From: Nocardia arthritidis
GTDB lineage: Bacteria; Actinomycetota; Actinomycetes; Mycobacteriales; Mycobacteriaceae
Direction of reading: 5' to 3'
Length of the DNA stretch: 64,000 nucleotides
NCBI RefSeq assembly: GCF_011801145.1
Contig: NZ_CP046172.1
Location: 4,836,001 to 4,900,000 of the forward strand
Shown here: positions 39,487 to 50,987 of the stretch, in pieces
Position numbering within the stretch: the first letter of the stretch is position 1
Layout: the number at the start of each line of letters is the position of its first letter
Program-made: the position numbers and the translations under genes
The notes under the pieces: model-generated
Databases searched by the model: none
What the model was told of the DNA's origin: nothing
Seen by the model: only the letters and a program-made list of their open reading frames with translations

Positions 39487-40815
39487 ATGTCTATGGACGA
39501 GGGTGACGACGATACGGACGACCCGGAGTCCGGCGAATCGTCGTGGGCGGAGCCGAGTACGTTGCTCGGGATGATCCAGCGCGGGCGCGGAGCCTGCCTG
39601 CGCGACGCGCGGGCGCAGCCTGCGGTGGCAGGCCAGTTCGTGGTCGACTGCATCGTTCGCGATCCTCGATGGGACCGTCAGGTCGAGCAAAGGGGTTGGC
39701 TGTACGCGACTCTCGTCGCCGACCTGGGGGTCGATCTTTCCCGGTTGTGCGCGGCATACAGCGGCCCGGCGGACCCGTACGGAGACGCCGACGCCTGGCT
39801 CGCCACAGGCGTTCTCGGGCTGCTTGCCCGTCGCGGTGTCGATGGCGCTGTCACCGAGCTGCGGCACTACCTGCGATCGGGGCGTGACCTCGACCAGGCG
39901 CTGGACGCACTGATTCCGTTCATCGATCATCCCGAGGCCGAGGGATTGCTCGACGAAGTACTGGAGGTGGCCGACGACGAGCAGCTGGAGTCGGCGCTCA
40001 CTTCGTACCGTTGGTTCGATTTGTCCAGGCCGCCTTGGCCGGACTGGCGGGGTGCGAGCGCGCGCATCGAACGGGTCATCGCAGTGGCCGAGCAGACGCG
40101 GGCAGCGCGTGAACGACCAGTGTTCGATCGCGCCGCACGGGAGGCCGCAGCACGCGAAAGGGTGCTGCGAGCCGCGATCGAGTCCGACCTCATCACCGCG
40201 GCATCGGCGTCGGAGTTGACCGAGGAACGCTGGGAGACAACGCTTTTAGCCATCGCACCGGACCTGCTCCAGGAATCTCCGAGCGTCATTCGGATCGCGG
40301 TGCGCAGATGTCTGAAGAAACTACGTTCACCGCACGCACTGACTTGGGCGCGGGCGAACGCCGCCCTCGACGGCGCCGTGGCGTGGGCTGCCTTGCGTCT
40401 GTTCGCTGACGTTGCCGAAACGTCAGACGCTCCTTGGCTGCTCGAGCTCCTGACCGAGGCCGTAGCTCGTGGCAACGACTACCTCTACCAGCAATACGAC
40501 CTCGTCGCCGCGCTCGGCCGCCTGGATCATGTCGCCGGCCTCGCGACGGTCGAAGGGATCTTCGACAACACCGTCTACTCGGTTCTCCGCAAACAGTGCG
40601 CGATGACGTTGAGCCGCCTGGCACCGGATTTCGCCGAAGGTCGGGCAGTCGAATGCCTCGACGACTGCGAATCCGAGACGCGGGAATTCGCCGTCGCGCA
40701 CGCGGACATGTCGGCTCCCGAGGTCTGTGAGCGCATCGGCCGGATGGCCGACGATCCCACAGAGGATGACGACAACCGGCGAGCCGCCGCGGCTCGAATT
40801 CTGCAGCGACGCTGA
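39487..40815 (+). CDS. HEAT/ARM-repeat-like protein, unknown
   Basis: 442 residues, acidic, almost entirely helical. Repeated Ala/Leu-rich helical pairs with conserved DxxAVAWAALRLFADVAE-like units (residues about 290-430) suggest HEAT-type scaffold repeats. No catalytic motif or membrane segment. Starts MSMDEGDDDTDD, a charged tail. Stands alone between dinB and a convergent oxidoreductase. Function unknown; perhaps a binding scaffold. Confidence 0.72.
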   Translation: MSMDEGDDDTDDPESGESSWAEPSTLLGMIQRGRGACLRDARAQPAVAGQFVVDCIVRDPRWDRQVEQRGWLYATLVADLGVDLSRLCAAYSGPADPYGDADAWLATGVLGLLARRGVDGAVTELRHYLRSGRDLDQALDALIPFIDHPEAEGLLDEVLEVADDEQLESALTSYRWFDLSRPPWPDWRGASARIERVIAVAEQTRAARERPVFDRAAREAAARERVLRAAIESDLITAASASELTEERWETTLLAIAPDLLQESPSVIRIAVRRCLKKLRSPHALTWARANAALDGAVAWAALRLFADVAETSDAPWLLELLTEAVARGNDYLYQQYDLVAALGRLDHVAGLATVEGIFDNTVYSVLRKQCAMTLSRLAPDFAEGRAVECLDDCESETREFAVAHADMSAPEVCERIGRMADDPTEDDDNRRAAAARILQRR

Positions 40816-43115: not shown

Positions 43116-43613
43116 TCAGCCGATGCGGCGGGCAAGATACCGAGAGAAGTAACCGCGGTACTTGGCCTGCAGATCGGGCCGCTGCCAGTCGCGGCCGTCG
43201 ATCACCCGGCGGCATGTCGAACGCCCGCAGGAGCAGTCCATCGAACCGTCGTAGTCGTCGAACAGCGCATAGTCCGTGGTCAGCTCCTCGCCCCGGGCGA
43301 TATCCCGCATGGCGACCAGCAGAATATTTCCGGCGAACCCGACGTTGGGCTCGCAGGAGTGGTTGATGAAGAGCATCACGCGTTCGTATTCGTCATCGGT
43401 CTTCGCGACGAGGTGCAGGTTGTCGTCGATCTGAATCTCCGAATTCTGCAGGTGATTCGGCAGTCGGCGCAGATCGTCGGTGGTGACGATATGGCCGCCC
43501 TTCACCGCGACGGTCTCGCCCGCGGCGATCGGTGCGACGGCGACGAGGCCCCGGCCGGAGATGGTGCTGTCCGCACCCTTGACCGCTTTCGGGGTGATCC
43601 AGGATTCCACCAT
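43116..43613 (-). CDS. SET-domain protein lysine methyltransferase-like
   Basis: 165 residues from an ATG at 43613 (a TTG 15 bases upstream is possible). Core SET motifs: an N-terminal RGLVAVAPIAAGE, the SAM/substrate motif LFINHSCEPNVGF (NHSCEPN at 84-90) and GEELTTDY at 108-115, followed by a post-SET cluster CSC at 127-129 with C134. It is small but complete. SET proteins are mainly eukaryotic; bacterial ones methylate proteins or have unknown targets. It follows the Hsp70 gene by about 18 bases and is likely its last co-transcribed partner. Confidence 0.85.
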   Translation of the reverse strand: MVESWITPKAVKGADSTISGRGLVAVAPIAAGETVAVKGGHIVTTDDLRRLPNHLQNSEIQIDDNLHLVAKTDDEYERVMLFINHSCEPNVGFAGNILLVAMRDIARGEELTTDYALFDDYDGSMDCSCGRSTCRRVIDGRDWQRPDLQAKYRGYFSRYLARRIG

Positions 43614-43631
43614 GGCTCCATCATTCAATGG

Positions 43632-46124
43632 TCAGGCGCCGCGGATTGTGCTGAAGGGGTCGGGCTCGGCGGGTGGTTCGGCGAACAGTTGGCGCAGTCT
43701 GGCGTTGATCATGCGCAGGCGGGTGACCTCGCCGGCTCGGACCGCGGTGTTGCCCTGTTCGATCAGATCGTCCGCTTGCCGGAGGTCGATCATTTGGTTG
43801 CGGTCTCTGGCCAGGCTTTCGAAGATGAGGATGGGCAGTTCGCCGGTGTGGTCGAGGATTTGGCGCCACAGCAGGCTCAGCTCCGCGGTGCGCTGGCGCA
43901 GCAGATCCGGCGCCCGGCTCTCGATCGCGTCGCGCACCGCGACCTCGAGGTTGTCGAACTGTCTGCGGTAGATCTCGTCGCGCACCTCGTCGACGGCGCG
44001 GCGGACGTAGGCGAGCAGTTCTTTGGCCCGGACCACCAGGCTCGGCCACAGCAGCTCGTCTTCGGCCTCATCGATCGCGGCCCGCAGGTCACGCAAGCGC
44101 TGCTGCGCGGCGACGGCGGCGTCGGGATCGGCCGCGGCGGCCTCGACCAGTTGCTGGGTGTCGGTGGCGGTCTGCTCGTCGTCGATGCGGGCCAGCAGCA
44201 GCTCCGAGGTCGGGTTGCCGATATCGCGGTGCCGCTGCCGGACCGTGGCCAGTCGCTCCAATTCCTGCTCGGTCTCGCGGCGCAGGACGGCGGCGTCGGG
44301 CAGGGTTTCGGTGTGCAGATCGATGACGTTCTCGAATTCGGCGTCCAGATACGGAATGTAGGCGCGCGCCACCATGATTCGGGACGCGTCGATCTCGAGC
44401 GTCACCTCGATCTCGCTGCCCTCCGGGATGCTGCGCTCGACTTGATCGGCGGTGATGTCGAGGCGGCCGATCGTGCGATTGCGGTCGCCCCGAGCGTGTT
44501 CACCCTCCAACACCGGAATCCGGATGAGGCCGGTGCGCCCGCCACCGCGATGCACGGGTGCGGCGGTGCGCAGCCGCTTGCGTGCGCGAGCGGGCAGCGG
44601 GGTGCCGCGCTCGATCAGCCGGACGGTCGTGTTGTCCGCGAGGCCGACATTGAGCGAATGGATCAGCGGCGGTTGAGTTTCCACCGCGCCGACGGTGTAG
44701 GTCAGCGTGTTCGGCGTGAGTTCGCGGCGGGTGCCGCTGGCGTCGGCGAGTTCGATCTCGAAGGTATTCGCGGCCCCGGCCTGCGCCCACAGCGTGGTGC
44801 TGAATACGCCGGTCTCGGCGACGGCGACCTTGCCGCCGCGCCACGGTGGCCGCGATGTCGAATTCACCAATTCCACTGTGAGCCCGGCCGGTACGGTGCC
44901 GTCGGCGGCGGCGATGCGGCCGATGATCAGCGGTTCGGTATCGGGGCCGACGGGGGAGTACTCCAGCTGGACGGTGAATCCGCCCGGTGCGGCCACCGGT
45001 GCCGCCCCGCCCGGAATCCGTTGTGTCCCAGCGAAGATCGCCGCACCGCGGGCGACGACGGTCAGCGGGTCCTGGCTGAAATCCAGCGGGATGCCGAGTC
45101 CGTGCTCGGGATGGGTGAGATGTTCCCGCAGATACGGCGACAGGGTCGGTCCGCCCACCAGGATCAGTTTGGCGATATCGCCTGCCCCCAGCCGCGCCTC
45201 CTCGAGCGCCTTGCGGCACAGGTTCACCGACCGGGTCAGGAACGGTTCGGCCAGCCGCTGGACATCTTCGCGGCGCAGTTCGTAGTAGAACTCGAAGCGC
45301 CGCCCGGCGCCGTCGTCGAGGTCGATCTCGATATCGGCGGACGTGCCGCGCGACAGCGCGATCTTCGCCTTCTCCGCGTGCAGCTTCAGCTTGTTCACCA
45401 CCGGCCGCCAGCGCGCGGCGCCGCGGGCCAGATCGGTGAGCCCGAATTCCGCACGCACCGCGGGGATCAGCAGCTCCTCGACGATGCGCCAGTCGATCTG
45501 CTTGCCGCCCAAATGATTATCGCCGCGGTGGTTCAGCACGGTGAACTCGCCGTCACGCAACTGGATCACCGCGGCGTCGAAGGTGCCGCCGCCGAGGTCA
45601 TACACCAGCCAGCGGGCGTTCTCGTCCGCGGACTGGAAGCCGTAGGCCAGCGCCGCGGCGGTCGGCTCCTGCAGCAGCGGGGCGAACCGCAGCCCGGCCG
45701 CCTCGGCCGCGACCCGCGTCGCCTCGCAGGAACTCATATCGAATGCTGCGGGAACCGTGACGACGGCCGCCTCGATATCCTCACCGAGCCGCTGCGCGAC
45801 ATCGGCGCGCAGCGATTTCAGTACCTCGGCCGAGAGCTGGGGTGGGGTGAGTTCCCGGCCGCTGGCCGCGAATCGCACCTTCTCCTGGGCGGTTCCCATG
45901 CGCAGCTTGAATTCCGCGGCGGTGTTGTCCGGGTCGGATTCGGCGCGCTCCTTCGCGGCCCGGCCGACGCGCAGCTTGTCCCGCTTGTCGATCCAGACGG
46001 CGGACGGCGTGGTGTCGGCGTCCTCGTTGTTCTTGATCACCTCCGCGTCGACACCGCGTAGCACGGCGACGGCGCTGTTGGTGGTGCCGAGATCGATGCC
46101 GAAGTCGACGGTCGTGCGGCTCAT
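43632..46124 (-). CDS. Divergent Hsp70 (DnaK-like) chaperone with inserted domain
   Basis: 830 residues, far longer than DnaK's about 620. The ATPase domain (1-370) has phosphate motifs FGIDLGTTNSAVAVL at 8-22 and VYDLGGGTFDAAVI at 174-187 and the adenosine motif LILVGGPTLSP at 320-330. Residues about 375-480 form an extra beta-rich domain absent from DnaK. Residues about 485-600 recall the DnaK beta substrate-binding domain (LNVGLADNTTVRLIERGTPL; VTLEIDASRIMVARA). A long helical tail of about 230 residues follows and has no EEVD-type end. The ATG overlaps the GrpE-like stop. Specialised rather than housekeeping Hsp70; its clients are unknown. Confidence 0.9.
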   Translation of the reverse strand: MSRTTVDFGIDLGTTNSAVAVLRGVDAEVIKNNEDADTTPSAVWIDKRDKLRVGRAAKERAESDPDNTAAEFKLRMGTAQEKVRFAASGRELTPPQLSAEVLKSLRADVAQRLGEDIEAAVVTVPAAFDMSSCEATRVAAEAAGLRFAPLLQEPTAAALAYGFQSADENARWLVYDLGGGTFDAAVIQLRDGEFTVLNHRGDNHLGGKQIDWRIVEELLIPAVRAEFGLTDLARGAARWRPVVNKLKLHAEKAKIALSRGTSADIEIDLDDGAGRRFEFYYELRREDVQRLAEPFLTRSVNLCRKALEEARLGAGDIAKLILVGGPTLSPYLREHLTHPEHGLGIPLDFSQDPLTVVARGAAIFAGTQRIPGGAAPVAAPGGFTVQLEYSPVGPDTEPLIIGRIAAADGTVPAGLTVELVNSTSRPPWRGGKVAVAETGVFSTTLWAQAGAANTFEIELADASGTRRELTPNTLTYTVGAVETQPPLIHSLNVGLADNTTVRLIERGTPLPARARKRLRTAAPVHRGGGRTGLIRIPVLEGEHARGDRNRTIGRLDITADQVERSIPEGSEIEVTLEIDASRIMVARAYIPYLDAEFENVIDLHTETLPDAAVLRRETEQELERLATVRQRHRDIGNPTSELLLARIDDEQTATDTQQLVEAAAADPDAAVAAQQRLRDLRAAIDEAEDELLWPSLVVRAKELLAYVRRAVDEVRDEIYRRQFDNLEVAVRDAIESRAPDLLRQRTAELSLLWRQILDHTGELPILIFESLARDRNQMIDLRQADDLIEQGNTAVRAGEVTRLRMINARLRQLFAEPPAEPDPFSTIRGA

Positions 46125-46501
46125 CGCTGCGCCTCCGAATCGGTCTGCGCCGCACCGTTTTCCGGAACGGCGACGATGATCTGGCCGCGCTGGGAGAGGT
46201 GACCGTCGATATACACGGTCGGCGTGATGGTCTCGGTGACCGTCTCGTGGGTCACCGCCGCCGAGGGTGCGAAGGCGACCACCTCCACCGACTGTCCGGC
46301 GTCGAATCGGTCACCGGTGTGCGTCTGCACGACGACACCGGCGTCGGCCAGCGCGTCGCTGAGCGAGTTCACCTGCCGGGTAATGGATTTCAGCAGCTTG
46401 CCGGGATCCTCGGCGTGATGGTCGGCGCCGAGTTTGTCCCGCAGCCGCCAAACGCCGGTGGCCAGATCCACCAGCAGTGGGCGGAAATCCTTGTCTTGCA
46501 T
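46121..46501 (-). CDS. GrpE-like nucleotide exchange factor
   Basis: 126 residues. An N-terminal helical part (KDFRPLLVDLATGVWRLRDK; LLKSITRQVNSLSDALADAG) leads to a beta domain (VVVQTHTGDRFDAGQSVEVV; ETITPTVYIDGHLSQRGQII) that matches the GrpE C-terminal half (G-x-FDP/A-x-H, then a Y-x-G-x-x-x-R-G-x-I-x-V strand). It is shorter than GrpE, lacking the long N-terminal coiled coil. Directly overlapping the Hsp70 start, so it should serve that chaperone. The call rests on fold pattern and context. Confidence 0.72.
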   Translation of the reverse strand: MQDKDFRPLLVDLATGVWRLRDKLGADHHAEDPGKLLKSITRQVNSLSDALADAGVVVQTHTGDRFDAGQSVEVVAFAPSAAVTHETVTETITPTVYIDGHLSQRGQIIVAVPENGAAQTDSEAQR

Positions 46502-46526
46502 GCATTCTCCCCGTTACCGGCGGCCG

Positions 46527-49394
46527 CTACGGCCGCTCGCCTTTGCGCCAGCCCTCGGCCAGCAGTTGTTGGACGCGTGGATATTCGAAGGCGCGATTGG
46601 GCGCCTCGGTCGCGGTCTGCGACTTCGACATCGCGACACCGATGAGGATCGCCGCGACGCCGAGGACCGCGGCGCCGATCGCCCCCGGCGGGTGGCTGGC
46701 GCCGAGTGCGGCGATACCGCCGATGAACGCGGCGAGGAATCCGATGAAGCCGAGGAACCCGCCGAATCCGCGCAGCCGCGCACCCGGCGCGTGCTCGATG
46801 CGGCACTGCTCGCAGCGCGGCACGTCGATGTGCAACGACTGCCAGCGCGTGGTGTTTCCGCGGCGGGTGACGTTGTTGTGCAGGCCGACACGGTATTTCG
46901 CCGGGTCGGCTCCCGGCTGTCGCCCACAGAACCAGCAGAAGGTGCGGAGTCGTTCGGCCTGTTCCCGCTCGGCTCGGATGCGGGTGAGCACGGTGTCCTG
47001 TTCGCGCAGGTAGTCCAGCGCGTCCTTACCCCGTACCGTCGGCCGGATCCGATCCATCAGTTCCACGGTGGCGTCCAGGTCGCCGGTTTCGTTGAAATAT
47101 CCCACCACGCAATGGATTACGGTGGTGGCGATCCGGTCGTGGGCCGCGTCGACGGCCTCGGTGTTCGGCTGGGGCGCCGAGCGCATGCGCGCCAGCGGTT
47201 CCTGGGTGTCGGCGAGCAGGTCGCGGGCCACCTGGGCGCCTTGCTTGGGAGCGTTGGCGGTCTTCTCCCGAGCGAGGGTGCACTGGTGCGCGACGTTCGC
47301 GCTGGAGGTGGCCGCCCATTCGGCGGCGAGCCGGTCCAGGATCGAGCGGGTGGTGGCAAGCGGGGCGAGGCGTTCGAGGATGTTCAAACTCGTAGGTACC
47401 GAACGTGTTTCGTTGAACTGGGCGATATCGCAGGAGATCGCCGTGCGAACCAGGTCGTCGTGGGCGCCGCTGCCGATCGGATCGGTGGCGGGCTGCAGCC
47501 TATCGATGATCAGCAGCGGGAGCTTGGCGTTGTCGAGCAGTCGGCCGGCCACCGCACCCGCGTCCTTGGGATCCTTCTGGACGGCCCGGGACGCGTCGTC
47601 GGCGAGTGTTCGGGTGTGCGCGGCCAGTTTTCGGACCGCGAGGTCACGCGCGCTGTCGACGGCGGCCGGGTCGAAGCTGCTCGGGCGGCCCGCGATCTGC
47701 TCGGCGAACCGGGTGAGCACGTCGGTGTGCAGGTCGGCGGCCGGGCGGTCACCGGCGACGGCCGCGCGGACCAGCAGGTCGGTGTGCAGACGCAGCAGCG
47801 CGGCGGGTAGGGCGGCGCGCAGTTCGGCCAGCGCGGCGGTGCCGACCCGGCTGTCGCCGATGGCTTCGGTCCTGGCGCGCAACCACTCCCATGAATCGGC
47901 GGCGCAGATGGCGGCGTCCCAGGCGGTCAGGGCATCGAGCCAGGTTTCGGCATGGCGCCCGAGCGGTGACTCCATCGCCTGAATGTGGCGCACGACGGCG
48001 AGGTTGTGCGCGGCGATGCCGGCCCGCGGCAGCCGTTCCAGCCAGATCCGTTCCAGACCGGCGAGATCACCCGGGCGCGGACCGTCCTCGCCCGGCCATA
48101 TCCAGAACAGCTCCTGGATCAATCGCTGTGCGGGCTCACGCAATTGGTTCAGTGCCGTCTTCGCCTCGCCCGGCTCCGGTTGCGACGGCGTCGGGAGCAG
48201 CGGTGTGAGCGCCAAGGGCGCGCCTAGTCGTTCGGCGGCCTCCAATTCGGTGACCCGCTTGCGAATTCGGCGGCCGTCGGCGTCGGTGGGCAGGTCGGCG
48301 AGGCGGAAAGCGTTGCGCCGGTAGGGCGAGTCATCGATGGCCGCGTCGAGGGCGGCCGTCACACCGGTCGGCGAGCCCGCCGCGGCGAACCCGAGGGTGG
48401 CCAGCGACACCGGCGCCCGCACCACCTCGGGCGGGATACCGCGCGGGGGCGCGGATTCGTCCGGCGCCGCGACCACACCGATTTTCACGAGGTTCGACTT
48501 GGCCGTCTCGAAACCGTTGGCGGCGCTGCGTTCGAACCAGGCGGTGGCGGCCGCCTCGTTGCGCCCGGACGGCCGCATCCACAGCCGATGCCCGAGGTAG
48601 TTCATCGCGGCGGCGCTGCCCGCGGCGGCGGCGCGCTCGTACAGCACGATGAACATCGGATCACCTTCTCGCTCAGCGAGTTCGGCGAGCGCGTAGTCGG
48701 CGCGGGAGTCGCCGTGGGCCGCGGCCTTCTCGTACCAGCGGCGGGCTCCGATCGGATCGCGCGGCTCGATGCGCTTGTCGAGCAGGTTCCCCACCGTGAA
48801 ATCGGCCTTGTCGTAGTTCGCCTCGGCCGCCTTCACGAACCAGGGCAGCGCCGAGGCGTAGTCCGGTGGGTCCATGGCCTCGAACAGGCAGCCGATATTG
48901 AACATGGCGATGCCGTCGCCGTTTTCGGCGGCCTTCTCATACCAGTGGCGTGCGCCGGCGAAATCGCGTGGGGTAGTCCACTGGTCGAGGACGAATGCCA
49001 ACCGGAAGTAGGCGTCGGCGTATCCGGCGGTCGCGGCCCGCTCGTACCAGTGGCGCGCGGACCGGTAGTCCGGCGGGTCGAGCCGGTACTGGCAGATGAT
49101 CCCGATATTGAACATCGCGACCTCGTCGCCGTTTTCGGCGGCCTTCTCGTACCAGCCGATCGCGGTGCGGTGATCCCGCTGATCCCGGCTGTCGTCGAGC
49201 AGATAGCCGAGCCGGAAGTACGCTGCGGTATGCCCGGCCGCCGCTGCTCGTTCGTACCACTCGCGGGCCCCGGAACGGTCGCGCGGCGACGACGTCTCCA
49301 AGAAGTAGCCGAGGTCGTACATCGCCTTCGCGTCACCCGAGGCGGCCGCCTGCTCCAGACCGGCACGGTTCGACGGATCGTAGGTGGTGCTCAC
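46527..49394 (-). CDS. Sel1-repeat, zinc-ribbon, membrane-anchored protein with possible J-like segment
   Basis: 955 residues from a GTG at 49394. Residues about 10-305 are 7-8 Sel1/TPR units (WYERAAAAGHTAAYFRLGYL; WYEKAAENGDEVAMFNIG). Residues 358-392 (YRRNAFRLADLPTDADGRRI and RKRVTELEAAERLG) resemble the start of a J domain but have no HPD motif. Two tandem copies of a helical unit follow (645-690, ISCDIAQFNET; 752-797, IHCVVGYFNET). A CxxC...CxxC ribbon (C820, C823, C861, C864) precedes two membrane helices at about 878-898 and 905-922. Predicted membrane-tethered cochaperone or adaptor of the neighbouring Hsp70; inference from order and domain content. First gene of the operon. Confidence 0.8.
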   Translation of the reverse strand: MSTTYDPSNRAGLEQAAASGDAKAMYDLGYFLETSSPRDRSGAREWYERAAAAGHTAAYFRLGYLLDDSRDQRDHRTAIGWYEKAAENGDEVAMFNIGIICQYRLDPPDYRSARHWYERAATAGYADAYFRLAFVLDQWTTPRDFAGARHWYEKAAENGDGIAMFNIGCLFEAMDPPDYASALPWFVKAAEANYDKADFTVGNLLDKRIEPRDPIGARRWYEKAAAHGDSRADYALAELAEREGDPMFIVLYERAAAAGSAAAMNYLGHRLWMRPSGRNEAAATAWFERSAANGFETAKSNLVKIGVVAAPDESAPPRGIPPEVVRAPVSLATLGFAAAGSPTGVTAALDAAIDDSPYRRNAFRLADLPTDADGRRIRKRVTELEAAERLGAPLALTPLLPTPSQPEPGEAKTALNQLREPAQRLIQELFWIWPGEDGPRPGDLAGLERIWLERLPRAGIAAHNLAVVRHIQAMESPLGRHAETWLDALTAWDAAICAADSWEWLRARTEAIGDSRVGTAALAELRAALPAALLRLHTDLLVRAAVAGDRPAADLHTDVLTRFAEQIAGRPSSFDPAAVDSARDLAVRKLAAHTRTLADDASRAVQKDPKDAGAVAGRLLDNAKLPLLIIDRLQPATDPIGSGAHDDLVRTAISCDIAQFNETRSVPTSLNILERLAPLATTRSILDRLAAEWAATSSANVAHQCTLAREKTANAPKQGAQVARDLLADTQEPLARMRSAPQPNTEAVDAAHDRIATTVIHCVVGYFNETGDLDATVELMDRIRPTVRGKDALDYLREQDTVLTRIRAEREQAERLRTFCWFCGRQPGADPAKYRVGLHNNVTRRGNTTRWQSLHIDVPRCEQCRIEHAPGARLRGFGGFLGFIGFLAAFIGGIAALGASHPPGAIGAAVLGVAAILIGVAMSKSQTATEAPNRAFEYPRVQQLLAEGWRKGERP

Positions 49395-49651: not shown

Positions 49652-50086
49652 CTAATCGACAGGCGCGCTGGGCTGGCGGGATGTGCGGCCCCGGATCAAC
49701 GCGAGCAAGTTGGGGCCGCCGCGTAGGCACCAGAGCGCGATCACGGGATCGCAGACCGCGCAGCCGAGCGAGGAATTGTGCGCGAAGGGGACGATCGGAT
49801 GGCCTTTGAGGTGATGTAGCACGTCGACGGCGCTGTGCAGCAGCCAGGCGATTCCGATGAACGTCCACGAATTCAGGCCGCGGAACGCGCAATACGTGAT
49901 GAGGGCGGTGAACAGATATTCCCAGCCGCCCAGGCCGCCGCCGCTGAGATAGGCGGCTCCGGCTCCGGCGATCATAATCGCGTTGAACGTGCGTCGATGC
50001 GGTTCCCGGATCAGTGACATCAGCAGGGCGTACACGGCGCCGATCAGCAGCGGCGCAACAACATTGGCGATGACGGACGGCGTCAT
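49652..50086 (-). CDS. DUF6010-like membrane protein
   Basis: 144 residues. Starts MTPSVIANVVAPLLIGAVYA and has about four helices. Recognisable family segments: LIREPHRRTFNAIMIAGAG, YLSGGGLGGWEYLF, IGIAWLLHSAVDVLHHLKG and SSLGCAVCDPVIALWCLRGG. Conserved H, D and C residues in the last two suggest a metal site. Function unknown. Its 5' end overlaps the divergent AraC-type gene by about 17 bases. Confidence 0.8.
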   Translation of the reverse strand: MTPSVIANVVAPLLIGAVYALLMSLIREPHRRTFNAIMIAGAGAAYLSGGGLGGWEYLFTALITYCAFRGLNSWTFIGIAWLLHSAVDVLHHLKGHPIVPFAHNSSLGCAVCDPVIALWCLRGGPNLLALIRGRTSRQPSAPVD

Positions 50087-50987
50087 ACCGTTCGACTTGT
50101 CCACTCCCATCGAGGTTTTCGACCGCACTCGGATACCGGACGGCCGCCGCGCCTATCGGGTCCGCATCTGCGCCGAGCGACCGGAGGTGGATGCGGGCGC
50201 ATTCGCCCTGCGGGCGCCATGGGGTCTGGACGCGGTGGCCGAGGCGGATACCGTGATCGTCCCCGGGGTCGCCGATCCGACCGCTCCGCTCTCGCCGAAC
50301 GTGCGCGACGCGCTCCGGGCCGCCGCCGCTGCGGGCACCAGGATCGCCTCCATCTGCACCGGGACGTTCCCCCTCGCGGCCACCGGACTCCTGGACGGGC
50401 TGCGGGCGACCACCCACTGGATCGTGGCGGACCTGTTGGCGGCCACCTATCCCCGGATCGAGGTCGATCCGGCGGTGCTGTATGTGGACAACGGCCAGAT
50501 CCTGACCTCCGCGGGCGCCTGCGCCGGACTCGACCTGTGTCTGCACCTGATCCGTCGCGACTACGGCTCGGCCGTGGCGGCCGACGCCGCCCGCCTGTCG
50601 GTGATGCCGCTGGAACGCGAGGGCGGGCAGGCGCAGTTCATCGTCCAGCCGCATCCGCCCGCGCCGCGCGGCGCCACCCTGGAGCCGCTGCTGCTGTGGT
50701 TGCAGGACAACATGTCCGGTGATCTCACCATCGCCGATATCGCGGCCCAGGCGGGCACCAGCACGCGAACTCTGCTGCGGCAGTTCCGGACTCAGGTCGG
50801 CACCACACCGCTGCGCTGGCTGCACCGCGCACGGATCCGTCGTGCCCAGCATCTGCTGGAGACGACCGAGCACACGATCGAACGCATCGGCGCGCGAGTG
50901 GGTTTCGGCTCACCGACCGCGTTCCGCGACAACTTCAAGCGCACCGTCGGCGTCACCCCGAATGCGTACCGCCGCGCCTTCCGGTGA
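50070..50987 (+). CDS. GlxA/AraC-family regulator with DJ-1/PfpI-like domain
   Basis: 305 residues. The N-terminal class-I amidotransferase-like (DJ-1/PfpI) domain runs from DGVIPFDLSTPIEVFDRTR to TLTSAGACAGLDLCLHLIR, with GTRIASICTGTFPLAATGLL holding the usual Cys position. A C-terminal double helix-turn-helix follows (LTIADIAAQAGTSTRTLLRQ; GVTPNAYRR). The ATG at 50070 leaves the first beta strand short, and the upstream frame is open to 49983, so the true start may be earlier, perhaps a TTG. It overlaps the divergent gene. Confidence 0.82.
   Translation: MTDGVIPFDLSTPIEVFDRTRIPDGRRAYRVRICAERPEVDAGAFALRAPWGLDAVAEADTVIVPGVADPTAPLSPNVRDALRAAAAAGTRIASICTGTFPLAATGLLDGLRATTHWIVADLLAATYPRIEVDPAVLYVDNGQILTSAGACAGLDLCLHLIRRDYGSAVAADAARLSVMPLEREGGQAQFIVQPHPPAPRGATLEPLLLWLQDNMSGDLTIADIAAQAGTSTRTLLRQFRTQVGTTPLRWLHRARIRRAQHLLETTEHTIERIGARVGFGSPTAFRDNFKRTVGVTPNAYRRAFR

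Follow-up and report, generated by a model that had tools for sequence, protein, structure and literature searches.

A conserved Hsp70 module with an HPD-less J-like adaptor, probably membrane tethered, in Nocardia arthritidis

The window analyzed here is a 64,000-nucleotide stretch of the Nocardia arthritidis genome (NZ_CP046172.1, positions 4,836,001 to 4,900,000; a 10.0-Mb genome on a single contig), in which a tight row of minus-strand genes encodes, in order, a Sel1-repeat adaptor protein, a GrpE-like factor, an Hsp70, and a SET-domain protein. The adaptor, GrpE-like factor, and Hsp70 constitute a real conserved module, and we propose, at a probability of roughly 0.6, that these three genes specify a specialized membrane-tethered Hsp70 machine whose pseudo-J adaptor lacks the histidine-proline-aspartate (HPD) motif of J proteins. 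The genes and their domains are listed below, with positions counted from the first letter of the window.

46527..49394, minus strand: adaptor gene, 955 residues (open reading frame, ORF; Pfam Sel1; AlphaFold2 model; co-conservation)
48495..49331, minus strand: Sel1 repeats of the adaptor, residues ~22-300, end set by eye (Pfam PF08238, E 1.4e-33, 5 stretches)
48090..48353, minus strand: J-like (pseudo-J) domain of the adaptor without HPD, residues ~348-435 (hhalign; PDB profile search; model helices)
46941..48065, minus strand: alpha-helical, helical-repeat-like domain of the adaptor, residues ~444-818 (AlphaFold2 model; fold-search rows)
46803..46937, minus strand: zinc-ribbon-like segment CWFC...CEQC of the adaptor, residues 820-864 (motif; cysteine pairs at 820 and 861)
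46620..46775, minus strand: two predicted membrane helices of the adaptor, residues ~874-925 (hydropathy)
46121..46501, minus strand: GrpE-like factor, 126 residues, a short N-terminal part and a GrpE beta-wing (ORF; profile comparison to GrpE)
43632..46124, minus strand: dedicated Hsp70, 830 residues (ORF; Pfam HSP70)
45027..46124, minus strand: nucleotide-binding domain of the Hsp70, residues 1-366 (Pfam; family-profile match; invariant ATPase-site positions)
44670..45017, minus strand: extra beta domain of the Hsp70 at the position of the DnaK VLLLD linker, residues ~370-485 (alignment to the genome's own DnaK; six beta strands in the model; gap between two matched DnaK stretches)
44307..44666, minus strand: substrate-binding beta domain of the Hsp70, residues ~487-606 (DnaK 2v7y, E 4e-8, as the second stretch matched by the family profile; model)
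43692..44294, minus strand: helical lid and long helical tail of the Hsp70, residues 611-811 (AlphaFold2 model)
43116..43628, minus strand: SET-domain gene, outside the conserved module (Pfam SET; found in 1/148 genus genomes)

All four ORFs lie where the sequence-only reading of this DNA had placed them, and the overlap it had noted between the GrpE-like gene and the start of the Hsp70 gene is an ATGA combining the stop of the former with the ATG of the latter. The adaptor stop is separated by 25 bases from the GrpE-like start, which is preceded by GGGGAGA, and the Hsp70 stop lies 3 bases from the SET start if that gene begins at TTG (170 residues) or 18 bases if it begins at the ATG at 43613 (165 residues). 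The HAIR operator of actinobacterial heat shock control had no match in the window with up to 3 mismatches, 0.64 being expected by chance. Elsewhere the genome carries a single ordinary DnaK-GrpE-DnaJ locus at about 9.476 Mb and encodes one more J protein, and genomewide Pfam searches gave two J-domain matches and one GrpE match, all outside the window. Besides DnaK and the window Hsp70, eight further ORFs have Hsp70-type matches (15 matches in 10 ORFs in all), at 9490944-9491753, 1375465-1376055, 2757204, 9524429, 8718674, 6885621, 2751362, and 1643493.

The adaptor, the GrpE-like factor, and the Hsp70 proved to be co-conserved across genomes, as their earlier treatment as one system would have it. 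We compared 88 loci, namely the window, 8 loci from a draw of genomes in the order, and 79 others (L088, a duplicate of L026, was left out). When their six-frame translations were searched with profiles, a GrpE-like match was found in 85 of the 88, always upstream of the Hsp70 gene, and a same-strand J-like match was present in 78, upstream of the Hsp70 gene in 66 and downstream in 12. Where the flanks span at least 3.5 kb upstream and at least 4.5 kb downstream (64 loci), the GrpE-like match was present in 64/64 and the same-strand J-like match in 63/64; at the sole exception (L101) the J-like match is on the opposite strand. First-round profiles of 10 and 6 sequences, used at 1e-10, picked out 73 J-like proteins and 45 GrpE-like ones among those called. 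Downstream placement of the adaptor was seen in Actinomadura and related genera (L041, L043, L046, L047, L050, L051, and L052), in several of them after a TPR/OmpA-type gene, and two Chloroflexota loci (L058 and L074) carry two Hsp70 genes of the window-type family in tandem, the first of those in L074 being a shorter frame.

Co-occurrence of the Hsp70 and the J-like domain was also evident in a draw of 150 genomes of the genus, a test that is independent of how the loci were picked. As far as candidates were scored, the Hsp70 (E <1e-100) and the J-like domain (E <=1e-5) were found in the identical 17 genomes, one set among 1.08e22 possible. The Hsp70 had a match at E 1e-10 in 142/150 of these genomes, of which only those at E <1e-100 were counted; matches beyond the 17 had E values of about 1e-11 to 1e-13 and began no earlier than model position 116, which is what a substrate domain shared with DnaK would give. 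At 17 of the 18 Hsp70 places in the genus, the J-like match lies 2.9-3.5 kb from the Hsp70 match. The remaining place (genome G297, L172:5668-8031) encodes a 788-residue in-frame fusion of a J-like part with a C-terminal Hsp70 part that is without most of the ATPase domain, and had no GrpE-like match within the 16 kb examined; it looks like a copy decayed by in-frame deletion.

Beyond the genus, relatives of the module extend to distant bacteria. Its closest Hsp70 relatives, among the best 80 of 344 found, are from Nocardia. In the order draw, 8/150 genomes, own genome included, carry the C-terminal Hsp70 half, and only the own genome matched at E <1e-100 in a draw of 396 genomes of the phylum, a lower bound with up to 4 candidates scored per genome. 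In a tree of 60 Hsp70s, many of them from metagenome bins, record titles fell into 12 phylum-level groups and 10 rows into none.

The Hsp70 matches Pfam HSP70 (PF00012) at E 1.1e-84, with its best stretch at residues 8-366, and its AlphaFold2 model (mean predicted local distance difference test score, pLDDT, 90.4) predicts a DnaK-like fold. The same model shows the extra beta domain and the long helical tail that had been read from the letters of this 830-residue protein. The VLLLD linker is present in the genome's own DnaK and is replaced by the inserted domain in the window Hsp70. Seven residues (D11, T14, K73, E153, D176, T181, and D183), which we take to be the catalytic residues of the ATPase site, are invariant in 60/60 Hsp70 relatives. 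Near the J-binding hairpin residues are changed, position 188 being Q, R, K, or H in 49/60 and position 190 being R in 43/60 and acidic in 14. The protein falls short of the equivalog cutoffs of both DnaK (TIGR02350, 287.5 versus 822.55 bits) and HscA (TIGR01991, 236.5 versus 708.55 bits). In the region taken to hold the GrpE-signature loop it has 2 residues fewer than the genome's own DnaK and no longer deletion. Its length also sets it outside the HscC class as delimited in PMC8215388 (550-580 residues).

By profile comparison, the J-like segment of the adaptor is a genuine relative of the J domain. A J-like segment had been suspected at residues 355-470, and the profile match overlaps that guess. 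Compared by hhalign with 23 real J domains (23 of 31 loci, chosen by HPD motif pattern), the J-like profile scored P 6e-6 and probability 85, against a best P of 0.015 among 50 column shuffles and 0.38 for the reversed alignment. A profile search of PDB with the J-like domain gave 62 matches, of which 60 were listed, and 31 of these had a stretch passing alone: 28 named DnaJ, Hsp40, or Sis1, together with mL77, mKIAA0962, and PARP-1. Of the last three, mL77 and mKIAA0962 are also taken as J proteins, in part from sister entries. The other 29 listed were 28 designed armadillo proteins and Sec63. In the AlphaFold2 model, helices at 362-365, 374-390, 408-419, and 421-429, preceded by one leading helix, match the J domain in order and break points when compared by eye with aligned J sequences.

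The J-like domains share a distinctive consensus across 73 aligned segments (YxxNxFRxxGLxxxA...RRR...L...G...AxxxLxDPxxRLxxExFWFW), and in 70 relatives N14 is invariant and Y11, F16, R17, R77, E81, W84, and W86 are at least 90% conserved (alignment numbering). A loop of variable length occupies the position of the HPD motif, which was found at its canonical place between helices II and III in 0/73 segments and nowhere in the window adaptor; a lone HPD string in L057 is C-terminal of helix IV and thus not in the canonical place. The earlier statement that the row includes no DnaJ gene with HPD extends to the other loci, in that a profile of 23 real J domains found no HPD-bearing J domain in 89 loci at E 1e-3. 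Loss of the contact made by DnaK R167 was considered as the reason for HPD loss and dropped, since the aligned ordinary DnaK also seems to lack that arginine.

The short GrpE-like protein is likewise, on profile evidence, related to GrpE, as the sequence-only reading had held. A profile of 43 relatives compared by hhalign with 17 GrpE sequences (17 of 30 loci, chosen by motif patterns) scored P 1.6e-8 and probability 95.5 over 73 columns of the beta-wing, the best of 50 shuffles giving P 0.024. Its top PDB match is a weak one to GrpE (E 0.08), and Pfam GrpE matched 19/43 relatives at E <=1 (best 6.9e-5). The window copy gave E 0.2, with a score under the gathering score of PF01025 (11.8 versus 25.8 bits), and had no Pfam family at 0.1. 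The protein is shorter than GrpE on the N-terminal side, and the match is confined to its C-terminal part.

Outside the J-like domain, the adaptor has the Sel1 repeats, zinc ribbon, and two membrane helices (predicted by hydropathy at ~874-892 and 901-925) that had been attributed to it. The model of residues 337-955 has a mean pLDDT of 94.9, and a fold search with the whole adaptor model listed mostly helical-repeat and other helical proteins. Among 72 adaptors, 58 have a predicted membrane helix and 43 a CxxC...CxxC pair C-terminal of the J-like domain. Of 10 long adaptors of other loci that were scanned whole with Pfam, 5 contain Sel1 repeats. These repeats are a lineage-specific addition: four of the five (L033, L036, L039, and L040) belong to a Nocardia/Pseudonocardia group and the fifth (L087) to the distant Syntrophaceae, so Sel1 probably joined the adaptor more than once. 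The Syntrophaceae locus (L087:500-6783) carries two long J-like adaptors side by side, the second with nine Sel1 stretches.

The SET protein has a Pfam SET match (E 7.5e-14), and its nearest solved structure is a KMT2A-type SET (E 4.3e-13). It had been read as a methyltransferase component of the system and was rejected as such: a homologue was found in 1/148 genus genomes at E 1e-20, a threshold at which more distant SET proteins go uncounted, and the ORFs called at the other loci include none. Because of the count in the genus, the SET gene looks like a lone neighbor. Other genes recur beside the module, with a same-strand kinase near 39/88 loci and a TPR/OmpA-type protein near 54/88. Pfam matched Pkinase in 17 of 50 operon-side neighbors scanned, the same number as had been picked as kinase-like, and among 28 downstream proteins scanned OmpA was found in 18 and TPR_2 in 19. 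The window locus has neither a kinase nor a TPR/OmpA-type protein. As for the exact composition for which the sequence-only reading knew no precedent, Sel1 together with the zinc ribbon is one lineage's version of the adaptor, and many loci add the kinase and the TPR/OmpA-type protein.

Several observations at these loci stand on their own. A Clp/Hsp100-type AAA+ gene follows the module at L060:4800-7136, L069:2724-5105, and L083:10917-13385, from Bacteroidota, Acidobacteriota, and Nitrospirota; the three form one BLAST cluster, and AAA families were found in 2 of the 50 neighbors scanned. In the window, a DUF6010 gene (49652-50128, minus strand) and an AraC/DJ-1 regulator gene (49983-50987, plus strand), both with strong Pfam matches, overlap by 146 bases at their starts on opposite strands, and a 442-residue protein at 39487-40815 (plus strand) appears HEAT-repeat-like by eye and has no Pfam match at 0.1. 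A phage or plasmid origin of the module was rejected, there being no phage match to Hsp70 residues 380-830 and a single, weak plasmid match, from Haliscomenobacter, with 25% identity across 44% of the query.

Taken as a machine, the module might work as follows. The predicted C-terminal helices would anchor the adaptor in the cytoplasmic membrane, where its helical domain and Sel1 repeats could gather clients or partner proteins. The J-like domain may dock on the cognate Hsp70, setting place and specificity, with the HPD route to hydrolysis closed. Hydrolysis might instead be triggered by client binding, by a non-HPD surface of the J-like domain, or by one of the two ordinary J proteins that the genome encodes. 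The Hsp70, which has the family membership, predicted fold, and catalytic residues for it, would then hydrolyze ATP and clamp peptides through its DnaK-type beta domain, and the beta domain at the linker position could retune crosstalk between the two Hsp70 halves. The GrpE-like factor, by virtue of its family relation, would open the ATPase cleft and reset the Hsp70. In general, the machine probably handles clients at the envelope, and in many lineages it would do so under the control of signaling. The complete chaperone cycle proposed from the sequence therefore holds in part only: a dedicated Hsp70, a GrpE-type factor, and a J-like adaptor predicted to be membrane bound are co-conserved, but the ATPase-triggering step is unaccounted for, because the J-like domain is without HPD in 73/73 segments. 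Of the outcomes named beforehand as refuting that proposal, a segment with no J-like fold is contradicted by the profile comparison and a lack of co-conservation by the locus and genome counts.

A number of points weigh against this proposal. Docking of the J-like domain and of the GrpE-like factor on the Hsp70 is something we infer from sequence. With Pfam J, the window copy had no match and a single relative out of 70 had one, at E 0.26, and the profile of 23 real J domains misses the pseudo-J domains at 1e-3. Among the PDB matches listed, designed armadillo repeats outscore J domains over the whole sequence (best E 9e-9 versus 7.5e-4); these E values are sums of weak repeats, each stretch in the two alignments examined reaching at most 6.5 bits. 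No J domain was among the matches listed in fold searches with the whole adaptor model (two lists of 50 rows), which the helical domain fills. No membrane helix was predicted in 14 of the 72 adaptors. The loci derive in part from a search with Hsp70 residues ~197-830, one genome per species, that kept the best 80 of 344 relatives, many from metagenome bins, and the profiles used in the locus counts draw in part on these loci themselves. In the genus draw, up to 11 Hsp70 and up to 35 J-like candidates were scored per genome, and absences hold to that depth.

Two other accounts of the J-like domain, both unlikely in our estimation and to about the same degree, overlap with the proposed machine. 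In one, the pseudo-J domain would inhibit or help in assembly in the manner of mitochondrial Pam16, pairing or competing with HPD-bearing J proteins that are encoded elsewhere and stimulate the ATPase. Two J-domain proteins are indeed encoded elsewhere in the genome, and Pam16 is described as an HPD-altered J protein paired with Pam18 (PMC13254874), but the linkage of the adaptor, seen in the same 17 genus genomes, is to its own Hsp70 and not to a J protein, and the 89 loci yielded no HPD-bearing J domain. Alternatively, the J-like domain may stimulate the ATPase directly through other residues, such as the YxxNxFR stretch or the FWFWP end, and so be an HPD-independent J domain. Such an activity would fit the strong conservation of N14 and seven other positions, the changes near the J-binding hairpin of the cognate Hsp70, and the designed J analogue that, according to the review, stimulates Hsc70 (PMC13254874); however, the conserved residues may serve folding, and what stands in place of the HPD loop is variable in length.

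Set beside the membrane-tethered machine, two further explanations fare worse. A defense function, a role that the sequence-only reading had left open, would follow if the module were a variant of the predicted GAP1-N2 GTPase conflict systems, in which HSP70 and GrpE with DnaJ- or TPR-fused proteins have been described in actinobacteria and firmicutes (Kaur et al. 2020, PMC7159879). The patchy distribution, 17/150 genomes in the genus, would suit such a system. We consider it improbable: PADLOC matched 0/4 proteins at E 0.1, leaving defense without support; no GTPase is among the 25 families listed of 57 in the 50 neighbors; FNIII was absent from the whole adaptors scanned with Pfam (the window and 10 others); and the phage and plasmid matches to the Hsp70 were as scant as noted above. 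Least probable of all, and hardly credible to us, is an ordinary duplicated DnaK system for general protein folding. The DnaK fold and the conserved catalytic residues agree with it, but the Hsp70 is well under the DnaK cutoff, has an extra domain, and lacks the linker, and an HPD-less adaptor bound to the membrane and a patchy distribution argue against an ordinary duplicate.

Textbook Hsp70 cycles require a J protein that bears HPD. Changes to HPD are reported to abolish stimulation, the HPE of DjlB and DjlC being the only tolerated change in a 2026 review, which also calls it unknown whether HPD-altered J proteins are accidents or positively selected (PMC13254874). The present module argues for selection of an HPD-less J-like domain, because that domain has been kept with its own Hsp70 and GrpE-like factor in tight linkage across records whose titles fall into 12 phylum-level groups. 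Going further, we raise tentatively, at somewhat less than an even chance, that such machines form a class of their own among bacterial Hsp70 systems. In that class a J-like domain without HPD would have taken the place of the J protein, and the machine would have been selected over a long time in many phyla and be membrane held, commonly in company with a Ser/Thr kinase and an envelope protein of TPR/OmpA type. If so, recruiting or activating Hsp70 independently of HPD would be an established mechanism of biology, as opposed to an accident of decay. A small, purifiable system of three proteins would allow the question of accident versus selection to be put directly, the beta domain at the linker position offers a natural test of Hsp70 allostery, and the module as a whole raises a testable question of how Hsp70 machines can be driven.

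No published description of the three-gene module was found in the literature searched, a search outside which most subscription journals lay, and the nearest known systems each share part of its make-up. With DnaK-DnaJ-GrpE it has in common an Hsp70 ATPase domain, a substrate-binding beta domain, and a GrpE-family factor; it differs in having an HPD-less membrane adaptor in place of the J protein, a beta domain inserted where the linker would be, and a shortened GrpE. Escherichia coli HscC with DjlB and DjlC is likewise a specialized Hsp70 encoded near membrane-anchored J-type partners, for which a role at the plasma membrane has been proposed (PMC8215388). As described there, however, HscC is a protein of 550-580 residues without the GrpE signature and is thought to be GrpE independent, whereas the window Hsp70 has 830 residues and a GrpE-like factor of its own; DjlB and DjlC are described as keeping a working HPE motif (PMC13254874), whereas the window adaptor has no HPD-like motif.

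Pam16, a pseudo-J protein placed among the type IV J proteins (PMC13254874), resembles the adaptor as a membrane-located part of an Hsp70 machine with a J fold that has no working HPD, but in that account it pairs with the HPD-bearing Pam18, whereas the search of the 89 loci of the window-type module found no J domain with HPD. In Myxococcus xanthus, MxDnaK2 and the GrpE MXAN_6672 present the same arrangement, in that a second Hsp70 gene is immediately preceded by a gene of GrpE type; the sections of PMC11019930 cited here report no pseudo-J adaptor, and the comparison with that system is one of published descriptions. The GAP1-N2 conflict systems combine HSP70, GrpE, and a DnaJ- or TPR-fused protein, are partly actinobacterial, and are membrane linked in the account of PMC7159879; the module differs in having no GTPase or FNIII in what was scanned, in the HPD-less state of its J-like domain, and in its association with a kinase and a TPR/OmpA-type protein instead. 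The HscC, Pam16-type, and GAP1-N2 systems, as they are described, thus differ in make-up from the module of adaptor, GrpE-like factor, and Hsp70 found here.

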